From: an uncultured Pseudoflavonifractor sp.
Lineage (GTDB): Bacteria; Bacillota; Clostridia; Oscillospirales; Oscillospiraceae
Length of the DNA stretch: 34,325 bases
Reading direction: 5' to 3'
Assembly (NCBI GenBank): GCA_947651395.1
Contig: CANSYW010000019.1
Span: 1 to 34,325 of the forward strand
Shown: positions 1 through 4,005 of the stretch, piece after piece
Layout: each line of letters opens with the position of its first letter
Numbering within the stretch: the first letter of the stretch is position 1
Program-made: the position numbers and the translations under genes
The notes under the pieces: model-generated
What the model saw: the letters and a program-made list of their open reading frames with translations, nothing else
Databases searched by the model: none
Told to the model about the DNA's origin: nothing

Positions 1-68
1 AATTTCCCGCCCCTGGCATGCGCGGGGGCCCCCACCAGGGGCCCCCCCAGCGCGCCGCGTCTCTTCCT

Positions 69-104
69 AAAAAACCCGCGGGCCCGGCCCGTTGGCCGGC
101 CGCC
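69..104 (-). terminator. Putative terminator after the hpf operon
   Basis: Read on the minus strand, a GC-rich inverted repeat (GGCCGGCC, short loop, GGCCGGGC with one bulge) is followed by GCGGG and then six T residues (plus-strand A at 69-74). It lies directly downstream of the small membrane protein gene, where a rho-independent terminator is expected. The stem is imperfect and the CCCGCGGG next to it is itself palindromic, so the exact fold is uncertain. Nothing else could be assigned in positions 1-117. Confidence 0.5.
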
Positions 105-117
105 TCTTTTTGTGGTT

Positions 118-303
118 TTATTTCTTCGGGGCTGTGGAACGAGCCAGAAGTACCACTCCGGTCAGCAACCCCAGAAAGAGGATAAGGCGGGCGATCTGGA
201 GGGGGTGGGGGGCCTCCCAGCCGCTCATAAGACGGGTGAAAAAGACCAGAGAACCCAGCAGACAGAGGGCGCTGCAGAGGGCATAAATCTTTTGCCCCGT
301 CAT
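118..303 (-). CDS. Small two-helix membrane protein of unknown function
   Basis: This 61-residue protein has two hydrophobic segments (about residues 7-24 and 38-55) separated by a short polar stretch, and a Lys-rich end, so it is probably an integral membrane miniprotein with two transmembrane helices. I do not recognise a family. The ATG begins only two bases after the hpf stop codon, and a GAGGAC sequence inside the hpf end could act as ribosome-binding site, so it looks translationally coupled to hpf and co-transcribed with it. A terminator-like hairpin follows. An overlapping plus-strand frame exists but has no comparable context. It is fairly likely to be a real gene because of position and hydrophobic pattern; its function is not inferable. 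Confidence 0.6.
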   Translation of the reverse strand: MTGQKIYALCSALCLLGSLVFFTRLMSGWEAPHPLQIARLILFLGLLTGVVLLARSTAPKK

Positions 304-305
304 TC

Positions 306-845
306 TCAGCCGTCGTCCTCAATGAGGCCGTAGCCGCCGTTGGCCCGCTTATAGACCACGGCAAAGGCGCCCCGGGCATCCTCATTTTTAAAGGCAAAGA
401 AGGTGTGGCCCAGCAGATTCATCTGGAGCACCGCCTCCTCCACCGTCATGGGCTTGATGGGGAACCGCTTGGTGCGCACCACGTCGTATTCCTCCTCGGG
501 CTCTTCGGGGACAAAGGAGGTGTCCTCCTCGGCGGCACGGACAAAGGCGTCCTTGCGCAGACGCTTTTCCAGCCGGGCCTTGTTCTTGCGCAGCTGACGC
601 TCAATGTCGGCCACGGCGGTGTCGATGGAGGCGAACATATCGGCGGTGCTCTCGGCGGCCCGAAGGATGGTGCCGCCTGAGCGGACGGTGACTTCCACGT
701 TATTGCGCCCCTTCTCGACGCTGAACACGACGGAAGCTTCGGCCTCCGTTTGGAAATAGCGATCCAGCTTGCCCACCTTTTTCTCGGCGTATTCGTGGAC
801 TTTTTTGGGCAGAGAAACCTTTTTGTCAGTGAACGTAAACTTCAT
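306..845 (-). CDS. hpf: Ribosome hibernation-promoting factor, long form
   Basis: HPF binds the 30S decoding region and, in its long form, dimerises 70S ribosomes into inactive 100S particles in stationary phase or stress. The 179-residue length fits the long form: an N-terminal HPF/RaiA domain (about residues 1-100, beginning MKFTFTDKKVSLPKKVHEYA, with the basic helix RQLRKNKARLEKRLRKD), an acidic linker (about 106-120), and a C-terminal dimerisation domain (about 123-178, RTKRFPIKPMTVEEA...LLGHTFFAF). The ribosome-binding site AGGAG lies just upstream of the ATG. The gene is followed at two bases by a small membrane protein. The 350-base region upstream holds its promoter and a divergent small RNA candidate. 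Confidence 0.95.
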   Translation of the reverse strand: MKFTFTDKKVSLPKKVHEYAEKKVGKLDRYFQTEAEASVVFSVEKGRNNVEVTVRSGGTILRAAESTADMFASIDTAVADIERQLRKNKARLEKRLRKDAFVRAAEEDTSFVPEEPEEEYDVVRTKRFPIKPMTVEEAVLQMNLLGHTFFAFKNEDARGAFAVVYKRANGGYGLIEDDG

Positions 846-909
846 GACCTGTCAGCTCCTTTCGCCTCAGGGGCGGTATCTTTCGGAGGGGGACATCCCC
901 TCTGAAACT

Positions 910-938
910 ATTATACCGCAAGTTTACCAAAAAGTCAT
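910..938 (-). promoter_or_regulatory. Candidate hpf promoter
   Basis: On the minus strand TATAAT (910-915) is preceded at 17 bases by ATGACT (933-938), which keeps the TGAC core of the consensus -35. It lies about 65 bases upstream of the hpf ATG. The -10 is perfect and the -35 is moderate. Confidence 0.5.
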
Positions 939-1057
939 CTGTTTTTTGAGAAAAATTGTAGAAAATATAAACCCCTGGAGGGGCGGCGGGGGCGGCCCGA
1001 ATTCAGGGCGTGGAGAGGGCCGGCAGCCCCGGCGGCATAAAACGACAAAAGTAGTGT

Positions 1058-1086
1058 TTGACATATTTTGGAATTTATGACATAAT
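1058..1086 (+). promoter_or_regulatory. Strong sigma-A promoter with no coding gene downstream
   Basis: A perfect -35 TTGACA (1058-1063), a 17-base spacer and CATAAT (1081-1086) form one of the best promoters in the window. It points away from hpf and toward the 3' end of htrA, which is on the opposite strand. The only thing between it and a terminator at 1166-1197 is about 105 bases without a supportable ORF. Confidence 0.8.
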
Positions 1087-1092
1087 AAAGGC

Positions 1093-1197
1093 GTGGTTTG
1101 AAGGGCCGGGTCATCCCGGTCGGTCAGTACCCATGTTCATTCCATTCTCCCCATACCGCGCGATTGGGCGTCCCAGCCGTTGGGACGCCCGCTTTTT
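1093..1197 (+). ncRNA. Candidate small RNA gene (~105 nt), unassigned
   Basis: The stretch lies between a strong promoter (1058-1086) and an intrinsic terminator (1166-1197), in the gap between two minus-strand genes, hpf and htrA. The predicted transcript starts near 1093. A 5' hairpin CCGGG-TCAT-CCCGG (1106-1119) is followed by an apparently unpaired pyrimidine-rich segment with TCTCCCC (1146-1152), then the terminator stem. One ATG at about 1132 opens a frame that reads through the terminator stem and has no ribosome-binding site, so coding is unlikely. I could not match it to 6S, SRP, tmRNA or RNase P RNA. The exposed C-rich segment resembles the Shine-Dalgarno-pairing seeds of known Gram-positive sRNAs; that role is inference. 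Confidence 0.6.
1166..1197 (+). terminator. Rho-independent terminator of the small RNA
   Basis: A perfect 10-bp stem GGGCGTCCCA (1166-1175) / TGGGACGCCC (1181-1190), with a 5-base loop, is followed by GC and five T. The U-tract is on the plus strand only; the minus strand past the htrA stop has no T run, so it serves the plus-strand transcript best. The tract overlaps the htrA stop codon. Confidence 0.85.
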
Positions 1198-2527
1198 ATT
1201 CGGCGTCTCCCTTGGGGCCCAGGGTGACGGCGGCCCAGCGGAGCTTGTCGCCCCGGAGGAGCTGGAGCATCATGAGATCCCCGGGGAGAAGCCCTTCCTT
1301 GGCGGCGCTGAGCTCTTCCGTGGAGGTGACGGCCCGGCCGCCGGCCCGGACGATCACATCCCCGGGGAGGAGACCTTGGGCAAAGGCGTCGGTGTCCTCC
1401 TCCACCTCCACGATAAGGGCGCCCATGGGCGCGGGGGTGGGGAGGGATGCGTCATAGGCGTTTTGGACCCGGATCCCCAGCATGGGTTGGCCCAGATATT
1501 CTCCCAATGCCATGAGCTGCTCCGCCACCGGCTTGACCAGGGCGGTGGGGATGGCAAAGCCCAGGGCCTCAATGGGCTGGAGAGGGGAGGCCATCTTCAT
1601 GTTGGTGATACCCACCACCTGGCCCCCGGCGTTGACCAGGGCCCCGCCGGAGTTGCCGGGATTGAGGGCGGCAGTGGTTTGGATGAGGGTCATAGTGCCC
1701 TGCTGGGTGGAGAGATCCCGGTCAATGGCGGAGATGATCCCGTCGGTCATGGTGCCCCGGAGCTCCTCGCCCAGAGGGTTGCCGATGGCGTAGGCGCTCT
1801 CCCCCACGGTGAGGGAGTCGGAGCTGCCGAACTGGGCGGGGGTGAGAGGGGCTTCGGGCTGCGTTTTCAGCACAGCCAGGTCGGTGCCGGCGTCATAGCC
1901 GGCCAGAAGGGCCTCCAGCCGCTGACCGTCGGAGAAGAGGATCTCCAGGCGGGTGCCGCCGGCGATGACGTGGGCGTTGGTGATGATGTAGCCGTCGGAG
2001 GACATGACCACCCCGGTCCCCAGAGAGGTGCCCTCCTGGGTATAGGCGCGGATGCCTACGATGGCGGGGCTCACCTGTTGATAGATCTCCTGGGGGGTGA
2101 GGCTTTCGCCGGTGGAGGCGGCCAGGGGGAGGGAGCGGCGTTCCGGAGCGGCGGGGGGAACGGAGGTGTAGGGCAGCTCCTGAGGCCAGTCCCACCACAC
2201 CGGAAGCTCCGGTATGAGAGCGCCCCAGGGCAAAGTGAAGTCGGAGAGCCGGTCGCCCAGACTCAGCCGGTAGCACAGCCCTGCGCCGGACAGGAGCAGG
2301 ATCAGGCACAAAGACAGGGCGAAGCCCCGGAGCGCGCCCCGCTTCATCCTGGCCCGGGAGGGCCGGGGACGGCGGAAATCAGGGGTGCGGGGGGAGGGGG
2401 TCTGGGTCTGGCGGGTCTTCTCCCCAGGGAGAGACCCATAGGGGCCTGGGGCGGGAGTGGGCCGCCAGTCGGGGTGGCCCTCTTCCGGAGTCACAGAGGA
2501 GGGGATATGATAATGATCCCGGCGCAT
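1196..2527 (-). CDS. htrA: HtrA/DegP-family membrane-anchored serine protease
   Basis: This is a quality-control protease of the cell surface that degrades misfolded exported proteins. The 443-residue protein has a proline-rich cytoplasmic N-terminus (1-60), one transmembrane anchor (about 66-86), a linker, a trypsin-like domain (about 140-335) and a C-terminal PDZ domain (about 345-435). The catalytic triad is visible: His186 in TNAHV, Asp216 in GTDLAVLK, and Ser293 in NPGNSGGAL. The ATG is preceded by AAAGGAG. It follows the sensor kinase by 32 bases on the same strand, so it is probably in one operon with the two-component genes, as in CssRS-controlled htrA of Bacillus; the regulatory parallel is inference. 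Confidence 0.95.
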   Translation of the reverse strand: MRRDHYHIPSSVTPEEGHPDWRPTPAPGPYGSLPGEKTRQTQTPSPRTPDFRRPRPSRARMKRGALRGFALSLCLILLLSGAGLCYRLSLGDRLSDFTLPWGALIPELPVWWDWPQELPYTSVPPAAPERRSLPLAASTGESLTPQEIYQQVSPAIVGIRAYTQEGTSLGTGVVMSSDGYIITNAHVIAGGTRLEILFSDGQRLEALLAGYDAGTDLAVLKTQPEAPLTPAQFGSSDSLTVGESAYAIGNPLGEELRGTMTDGIISAIDRDLSTQQGTMTLIQTTAALNPGNSGGALVNAGGQVVGITNMKMASPLQPIEALGFAIPTALVKPVAEQLMALGEYLGQPMLGIRVQNAYDASLPTPAPMGALIVEVEEDTDAFAQGLLPGDVIVRAGGRAVTSTEELSAAKEGLLPGDLMMLQLLRGDKLRWAAVTLGPKGDAE

Positions 2528-2559
2528 GGCGGTTTCTCCTTTCCGAATGGGTGAATGGC

Positions 2560-4005
2560 TCAGGCCAGGGTGAGGGTAAAGGTAAAGGTGGTCACGCGGT
2601 CCTCGCTGGTGACCGAGATGGTCTCCTTGTGGTTGTCGATGATGGCTTTGACGATATAGAGGCCAAGCCCCACCCCGTCCCGATCCTCGCTGCGGGAACG
2701 GTCTGTCTTGTGAAAGCGGTCAAAGATCTGGGCCAGCTCCTGAGGGGGGATGGTCTCTCCCGTGTCGGAGAGCGACACCAGGGCCTTTTCTCCCTTGATC
2801 TGGATGGCCAGCCCCAGGGTGGAGCCGGGGTCGGCAAACTTGATGGCGTTGTCCAGCAGGTTATAACACACCTGGGTGATGGCGTCGGGATCGCCCCAGA
2901 CGGTGACCGGCTCCTCGGGAAGCTGGGTGGCCACGTCCAGATTTCTGCCGTTGATCTTTCCCTCCAGACTCACCAGCACCCGCAAAAGCAGCTCGCTGAC
3001 GTCGAAGCGCTCCTGGGCGGTGATATTCTCGCCGGACTGGAGCCGGGAGAGATCCAGCATCCGCCGCACCAGACGGCTGAGCCGCCTGGTCTCCGAGGAG
3101 ATGGTCTTAAGGGCGGCGATCTCTTTTTCCGGTGGGACGGTGCCGTCCAGAATGCCGTCGGCAAAGCCGGCGATGGTGGTCATGGGAGTTTTGAGCTCGT
3201 GGGAGACGTTGGCGATAAACTCGCTGCGCTGATGCTCGCTCTTGGCCAGAGAGTCGGCCATGGCGTTAAAGGATTCGGCCAGTTCGCCCACCTCGTCCCT
3301 GCGATTCTCGCACCCCTCCACCCGGACGTCAAATTCTCCCCGGCCAAAGCGGCGGGCGGCGTCTGCCATGTCCTTCAAGGGCTTGGTCAGCCGCAGGGAG
3401 GTGATGGAACTCAGGGCGGAGGCCAGCAGGAACACGATGCCGGCGGCCAGGATAAAGATGGAGGCAAAATCCCGCCACAGCTGAGTGAGACTGGAGCTCT
3501 CGTTGACCACAAAGACCACGCCCCGGAGGTAGGTCTGTCCGGTGATGCGGGAGCGTTGAAGGATGGGGGTGGCCACCACATAGGACTTTGCCGCCACCAG
3601 TCCGCCCAGGTCGGTGACACGGGCGTAGCCCTCAGTACCGGTGGCGGCCTCGATCACGTCGGCGGGAATATTGCCCACCAGCAGGGAATTGGTGCCCTGG
3701 CTGGCGGCGGAGACGGCGAAGGCGATCTCGCCGTTGTTTTCCGCCAGGATGATGGTGGAGCCTGAAATGCTGGACAGGGAGGAGACATAGAGCTGATAGG
3801 CCCCCTCCTGGACGCTGGAGCCCAGGGTGGAGAGATAGGCGCTGGTGAAGGAGGCGATGTGGCTGGCGTTGTTCTCCATGGTCTGGCGCTTATCCGCCAT
3901 GACATACTGGTAGCTCAGACCCGCAAAGGCGCCGCCCAGCAGGAGAAAGGACAGGAAGATCATGCCGGCCATCATGGTGAACTGTCGCCGGTAGAGGCTT
4001 TTCAC
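2560..4005 (-). CDS. Membrane sensor histidine kinase with HAMP domain
   Basis: The 481-residue protein is a classic sensor kinase: TM1 (about 11-33), an extracellular sensing region (about 34-180), TM2 (about 181-203), HAMP (about 204-256), and HisKA with the H-box NVSHELKTPM (phospho-accepting His269). The HATPase domain carries the N-box NLLDNAIKF (Asn386), G1 DTGE and G2 GVGLGL. It autophosphorylates and passes the phosphate to the partner regulator encoded directly upstream; the ATG overlaps the regulator's stop codon by four bases. The extracellular region resembles no sensor I recognise. With htrA next in the operon, a role in sensing envelope or secretion stress is a reasonable inference. 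Confidence 0.93.
   Translation of the reverse strand: MKSLYRRQFTMMAGMIFLSFLLLGGAFAGLSYQYVMADKRQTMENNASHIASFTSAYLSTLGSSVQEGAYQLYVSSLSSISGSTIILAENNGEIAFAVSAASQGTNSLLVGNIPADVIEAATGTEGYARVTDLGGLVAAKSYVVATPILQRSRITGQTYLRGVVFVVNESSSLTQLWRDFASIFILAAGIVFLLASALSSITSLRLTKPLKDMADAARRFGRGEFDVRVEGCENRRDEVGELAESFNAMADSLAKSEHQRSEFIANVSHELKTPMTTIAGFADGILDGTVPPEKEIAALKTISSETRRLSRLVRRMLDLSRLQSGENITAQERFDVSELLLRVLVSLEGKINGRNLDVATQLPEEPVTVWGDPDAITQVCYNLLDNAIKFADPGSTLGLAIQIKGEKALVSLSDTGETIPPQELAQIFDRFHKTDRSRSEDRDGVGLGLYIVKAIIDNHKETISVTSEDRVTTFTFTLTLA

Follow-up and report, generated by a model that had tools for sequence, protein, structure and literature searches.

The DNA analysed here is a 34,325-nt stretch from an uncultured Pseudoflavonifractor sp. 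(hereafter, the window), and between its hpf and htrA genes lies what is very probably a genuine small-RNA gene. The predicted product is about 105 nt long, and we rate it as a new family outside Rfam. As a whole explanation we favour a trans-acting small RNA that would be stimulated by Spo0A and would pair with mRNA starts at sporulation entry; we put its probability at about 0.5. The elements of the locus are the following.

306 to 845, minus strand: hpf, ribosome hibernation factor (PF02482 and PF16321, the S30AE N- and C-terminal domains)
1041 to 1047, minus strand: degenerate Spo0A-box-like site, TGTCGTT (plus strand AACGACA), aligned with the TTCGACA of relatives
1058 to 1086, plus strand: promoter TTGACA-17-CATAAT, from the motif scan and kept in the genus alignment
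1093 to 1197, plus strand: predicted small RNA of about 105 nt, from conservation, folding and the motif scan
1095 to 1131, plus strand: 5' hairpin, from folding, its sequence differing among species
1135 to 1152, plus strand: core GTTCATTCCATTCTCCCC, its first 17 nt invariant in 14 genus loci
1165 to 1197, plus strand: intrinsic terminator, consisting of a stem (1165-1191) and a T run, from the motif scan and covariation
1196 to 2527, minus strand: htrA-type protease, trypsin-like with a PDZ domain (PF13365, PDZ)

The promoter consists of a -35 element, TTGACA, at 1058-1063, a 17-nt spacer, and a -10 element, CATAAT, at 1081-1086; it matches the consensus at 11 of 12 positions and, judged by these elements, is of the sigma-A type. 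Three promoter-like sites are found in positions 1-4000, compared with 0.5 expected from shuffles. The RNA 5' end at 1093 is placed approximately 7 nt past the -10, and the 3' end is the T run. The terminator stem comprises 12 pairs, is followed by CTTTTTATT, and is the longest among eight terminator-like sites (3.2 expected from shuffles). The 105-nt segment as a whole folds with a free energy of -43.6 kcal/mol (z -3.2), which none of 200 shuffles equals. Of the two neighbours, hpf is divergent from the RNA and htrA convergent with it, and neither is part of the RNA. A terminator serving htrA was rejected, as the minus strand has no T run after the stem. A leader of a downstream gene was rejected as well, since the next gene in the window is on the opposite strand, as is htrA in all 14 genus loci.

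In the explanation that we favour, the housekeeping RNA polymerase would start transcription at about 1093, and the promoter would most likely be stimulated by phosphorylated Spo0A sitting immediately ahead of the -35, so that the level of the RNA would rise on sporulation entry. The 5' hairpin and the terminator stem would leave the pyrimidine-rich core single-stranded between them. Because the core mirrors a translation start, it would be expected to pair with mRNA start regions, keeping ribosomes off them and reducing translation.

A DNA search with positions 1040-1210 matches the unit in 14 of the 16 genus genomes, the window's own included; Pseudoflavonifractor sp. Marseille-P3106 and Oscillospiraceae bacterium CE91-St43 are among the named carriers. 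Together with the motif scans, this confirms an earlier note on this DNA, which had proposed a promoter and a terminator enclosing about 105 nt; of these checks, conservation carries the most weight. In the genus alignment the promoter, core and terminator are kept, and the spacer farther upstream cannot be aligned. The members consist of TTGACA, a -10, in most cases a GTGGT start, a hairpin whose sequence varies, the invariant stretch GTTCATTCCATTCTCCC, and the terminator. The core is invariant across 17 nt in the 14 loci, with variable flanks. All 14 have hpf on one side of the RNA and htrA on the other; the distance from hpf to the core is 186-289 nt in ten of them and 1070-1358 nt in four, and in these four a gene-sized stretch lies between hpf and the core (a fumarate hydratase gene in all three that were scanned). 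Of 68 matching stretches, 17 were accepted by eye as true members.

The two genus genomes with no match are G012 and G007. In G012 (locus L156), the RNA and htrA are absent together, and hpf is followed by an apparent sensor-kinase gene like that of the window; the covariance model gives only a partial, terminator-like match in this genome. The refuting case named in the earlier note, a spacer that diverges in relatives while its flanking genes stay, did not arise.

The general plan of the RNA is a variable 5' hairpin, a mostly unpaired core GUUCAUUCCAUUCUCCCC, and a covarying terminator. In 19 sequences aligned with MAFFT, both-sided changes that preserve pairing occur in 8 of the 10 terminator pairs, which answers the earlier call for a covariation check, and 91% of the terminator cells are paired (79% in shuffles; 45-65% in slid versions). 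For 61 distinct members, folded with approximate ends and assumed starts (about ten of them placed manually, and with the end of L002 set too early), the mean unpaired probability is 0.78 in the core and 0.45 elsewhere. The openness of the core is variable, exceeding 0.8 in 33 of the 61 members and falling to 0.26 in the lowest. The 5' segment has a median z of -1.25 against single-base shuffles, and is below -1 in 34/61; most genus loci show a clear hairpin there, but not every member does. The proposed arrangement of a 5' hairpin, an unpaired pyrimidine-rich segment with TCTCCCC, and a terminator stem is upheld, and the TCTCCCC segment turns out to be the invariant part.

Outside of the genus the flanks are fully diverged, and the exact 17-nt core occurs in nine of the 300 genomes from the family, representing 3 of 106 genera. 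Loci of other genera anchored on hpf yielded more members, in which the core is slightly changed; a core with up to three mismatches is present in 5 of 30 such loci that were read. A covariance model of the core plus terminator matches 46 of the 300 family genomes at E<=1e-6, in 19 of 106 genera, of which 14 were confirmed by reading the sequence and five are counted by score alone. Matches above E 1e-6, many of which span only model positions 31-62 (the terminator), are excluded from the 46, and one of the 46 (G202) covers only positions 10-62.

Among 394 genomes of the order, 30 match the model at E<=1e-5. Thirteen of these belong to a second family, and all 13, when read, have the common core GTTCATATCTTTATCCC; one match in a third family has the core GCTCATATCTTTATCCC. 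The matches in G483 and G141 were dropped, as their sequences did not resemble those of members. A divergent amidohydrolase gene and a converging gene for an S1-domain protein flank the RNA in two loci of the window's own family (L201 and L215) and in three of the second family (L270, L273 and L277), and the neighbours in L203 and L212 are the amidohydrolase and htrA. As this pair of neighbours recurs in both families, we take the second-family RNA to be a putative syntenic ortholog, whose core differs in sequence yet is invariant among its own members. The overall interpretation of the earlier note stands as regards a conserved small-RNA gene and is not supported as regards a special link with hpf, which is not general beyond the genus; the other neighbours that were read are the amidohydrolase, the S1-domain protein or htrA.

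As a separate observation, a second conserved block, TTGCAGC followed in most cases by CCAAT, marks the 5' end of the RNA in a number of other genera (L157, L201, L205, L212, L214, L219 and L220), and is absent from the window's genus.

The suggested control by Spo0A is based on a short site upstream of the -35. Its sequence in relatives, TTCGACA, corresponds to the Spo0A box core TGTCGAA read on the opposite strand. Scanning was for sites that start 12-22 nt ahead of the -35. TTCGACA is exact in 25 of 61 members (0.04 expected from shuffles), and 36 have it with no more than one mismatch (1.0 expected); about ten members with unusual promoters (including L018, L215, L226, L228, L230, L231, L276, L279 and L282), for which the -35 was misplaced, stay in the 61 and are mostly scored as misses. 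Two further candidate loci, L227 and L250, yielded no member. In the 16 genus genomes, the pattern TTCGACA-N(9-11)-TTGACA has seven matches, six of which are the small-RNA promoter, and the reversed control has two. The site in the window starts 17 nt before the -35 and has two mismatches in seven to the box core; it retains G2, C4 and G5, which are the box bases contacted by Spo0A (PMC3485338).

The regulator itself is represented throughout the genus, as a match to the Spo0A C-terminal domain is found in all 16 genomes (E<=1e-45 in 15, and weaker in G013). One genus protein matches solved Spo0A domains with an E of 1e-49, the helix stretch TTASRVERAIRHAIEVAW being identical. As a control, the DNA ahead of spo0A, taken from 15 genus genomes, has exact boxes in five (0.4 expected) and near-consensus boxes in 13 (3.7 expected), with two mis-set start codons (L349 and L357) counted as misses. 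In six of these loci (L347, L351, L352, L353, L356 and L359), paired Spo0A-box-like sites lie 10 bp apart before spo0A, an arrangement that suggests autoregulation. A second control, upstream of spoIIE, shows no enrichment, with exact boxes in 0/30 regions (1.5 expected) and near-consensus boxes in 10/30 (12.5 expected), and for this reason our confidence in the whole explanation was lowered to the value given above. In B. subtilis, spoIIAA and spoIIE have near-consensus boxes only (PMC3485338). We also noted by eye sequences like TTATGTTAAC/TTATGTAAAC before spoIIE in genera that have no Spo0A box there (L317, L319, L336, L338 and L342); in L342 and L338 they form an inverted repeat.

The same data bear on the first alternative, in which the RNA is a real anti-start-site RNA that is not controlled by Spo0A, TTCGACA being bound by another regulator or serving the divergent gene, so that expression would follow sigma-A and growth phase. 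It would fit with the unenriched spoIIE regions. It would also fit with the site being degenerate or absent in five of the 14 genus loci and in the majority of second-family members, all of which retain the RNA. Four genus loci (L004, L009, L010 and L013) have no recognisable box, and among 14 members of the second-family type the box is at the standard place in one, with TTCGACA elsewhere in three more. What speaks against this alternative is the position of the site, which is exactly 17 nt from the -35 of the RNA in 30 of 36 cases, while the distance to the divergent gene varies, the start of hpf alone being separated from the core by 186 to 1358 nt within the genus. In addition, the site agrees with the Spo0A box core, and similar sites precede spo0A in the genus. 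On balance we consider an RNA free of Spo0A control to be somewhat unlikely.

Stimulation by Spo0A is also consistent with the distribution of the RNA with respect to the sporulation protein SpoIIE, which is found at E<=1e-60 in 177 of the 300 family genomes; this threshold was picked once the scores were seen, and none of the genomes passes the curated cut-off. The RNA is present in 45 of the 177 strong-SpoIIE genomes and in 1 of the 123 others (Fisher p 1.2e-10, a raw value that ignores shared ancestry and genome incompleteness), and 132 of the 177 have no RNA match at E<=1e-6. A link with stationary phase or stress, which had been thought conceivable from the hpf neighbour, is plausible on other grounds, namely the Spo0A-box-like promoter site and the co-occurrence with SpoIIE. 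Separately, the weak or absent SpoIIE match in 123 of the 300 genomes suggests repeated loss of sporulation within the family.

The reverse complement of the core, GGGGAGAATGGAATGAAC, consists of a Shine-Dalgarno sequence, 6 nt, and ATG AAC; put differently, the core is fully antisense to GGGGAGAAUGGAAUGAAC, i.e., to a Shine-Dalgarno sequence, six bases, and AUG AAC. In this segment, which the earlier note likened to the C-rich seeds that pair with Shine-Dalgarno sequences, the complementarity covers a ribosome-binding site together with the start codon. The complement of the second-family core, GGGGAUAAAGAUAUGAAC, also contains AUG AAC. The likeness is suggestive and is not proof, because the same arrangement of Shine-Dalgarno and AUG arises in 8% and 5% of shuffled cores, and the pattern is kept in seven of nine typed core variants and absent from two.

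Searches for targets gave an excess of matches distributed over many genes. The 18-nt core complement, with up to three mismatches, has 49 non-self matches in the 16 genus genomes, compared with 8 for a reversed control. Of the 47 that were read, 32 have a frame that starts at the pattern's own ATG or GTG; the genes differ, and some of these starts lie inside longer frames. The best match (17 of 18 positions) is at the start of a phosphoribosyltransferase gene in the close relative G001 (L109, 958-1506, minus strand). There it sits upstream of an AAA-domain gene, and we take the pair to be hpt/ftsH; the phosphoribosyltransferase gene is not among the core-complement matches of the other genus species. 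Three pairs of look-alike proteins are matched in two species each, all with three mismatches: a short lipoprotein (G000 and G001), a substrate-binding protein (G000 and G014), and a Tat-signal lipoprotein (G002 and G006).

Wider searches behave similarly. An exact 13-mer occurs at 57 places in the 300 family genomes (control, 1), 28 of them outside the small RNA, and among the latter no gene is repeated except for one integrase-like frame in two genomes. The second-family core complement has 28 non-self matches in 12 genomes (control, 8), and the 18 that were read show no gene repeated at a start. Duplex energies against the 31 gene starts in the window give no clear winner, hpf and htrA being poor. 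Thus, many start regions match and none recurs as a conserved target across the genus, 300-genome and second-family scans, a pattern that leads us to propose that the RNA would repress translation by pairing with start regions.

The absence of a target gene that recurs between species would also be expected if the core instead has a protein as its partner, or acts as a sponge for another RNA, its likeness to a ribosome-binding site being incidental, and the 8% and 5% obtained with shuffled cores show how often such a likeness arises. Yet the cores of the two families, which differ in sequence, both end antisense to AUG AAC and both begin with a G-rich complement, which would be expected were start regions to constrain them, and we regard a protein-binding or sponging core as unlikely. 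That the segment is a small-peptide mRNA, or merely a chance promoter-terminator pair, is very improbable: an open frame does cross it in the window, but the ATG or GTG that precedes the core is missing in other genera, and the conservation across genera despite diverged flanks argues strongly against chance. A small ORF was accordingly rejected, the open frames being run-throughs into antisense htrA, which bears out the original view that the segment has no supportable ORF.

No Rfam family matches the whole window or 20 related loci at the gathering threshold, and with E<=10 nothing credible is found in positions 880-1300, the best hit being sX12, whose 19.9 bits fall below its cut-off of 106. 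This accords with the initial impression that the RNA resembles none that is recognised. Rfam presumably contains the covariance models for RsaE/RoxS and for the raiA motif/ModT, and we take raiA to be of the hpf family.

Among the known RNAs, the RsaE/RoxS type of Staphylococcus aureus and Bacillus subtilis has single-stranded C-rich regions complementary to Shine-Dalgarno sequences; RoxS, which is under ResDE control, has several of them (PMC4409812). The present RNA would be similar in being a short Firmicutes RNA with an unpaired C-rich stretch complementary to Shine-Dalgarno, and differs in having one core, ending CCC(C), that spans the Shine-Dalgarno, spacer and start codon, and in its Spo0A-box-like site. 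With a single C-rich core and no Rfam match at gathering, it is not placed in RsaE/RoxS. A second comparison is with CsfG, which is under forespore sigma-factor control. CsfG is described as a sporulation small RNA of Bacillus whose C-rich regions are predicted to be single-stranded (PMC4409812). The RNA found here would resemble it, so described, in being sporulation-linked with a C-rich single strand, and no Rfam model reached its cut-off in the general scans.

SpoX and SpoY of Clostridioides difficile are described as base-pairing small RNAs at sporulation entry (PMC10267692). Compared by description, they act on the spo0A mRNA, and hence upstream of Spo0A, whereas the RNA of the window would act downstream. 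The raiA motif RNA, or ModT, is non-coding, often near raiA, and affects sporulation (PMC11706538). Unlike the RNA so described, the present one is built simply of hairpin, core and terminator and runs divergently from hpf, and it was not assigned there because no Rfam model matches the window or the 20 loci at gathering. In the open-access literature we found nothing on the core sequences, on Spo0A boxes in combination with small RNAs, or on small RNAs of gut Clostridia, and no described sporulation small RNA for Oscillospiraceae and relatives.

A broader and rather improbable reading is that the RNA would be a broad, Spo0A-triggered translational brake common to several genera that, rather than acting on a single target, silences all mRNAs of the type with a strong G-rich Shine-Dalgarno, six bases and AUG-AA at the commitment to sporulation, its core having been re-tuned as a block between families. 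The core would then be the one described above in one family and GUUCAUAUCUUUAUCCCC in another, with position and architecture kept. Whichever mRNAs are involved, the naturally re-written core of the second family can help to find targets by covariation. Oscillospiraceae and their relatives are abundant gut bacteria, and in them a conserved RNA whose promoter has a site resembling the Spo0A box would place post-transcriptional control directly behind the decision taken by Spo0A.
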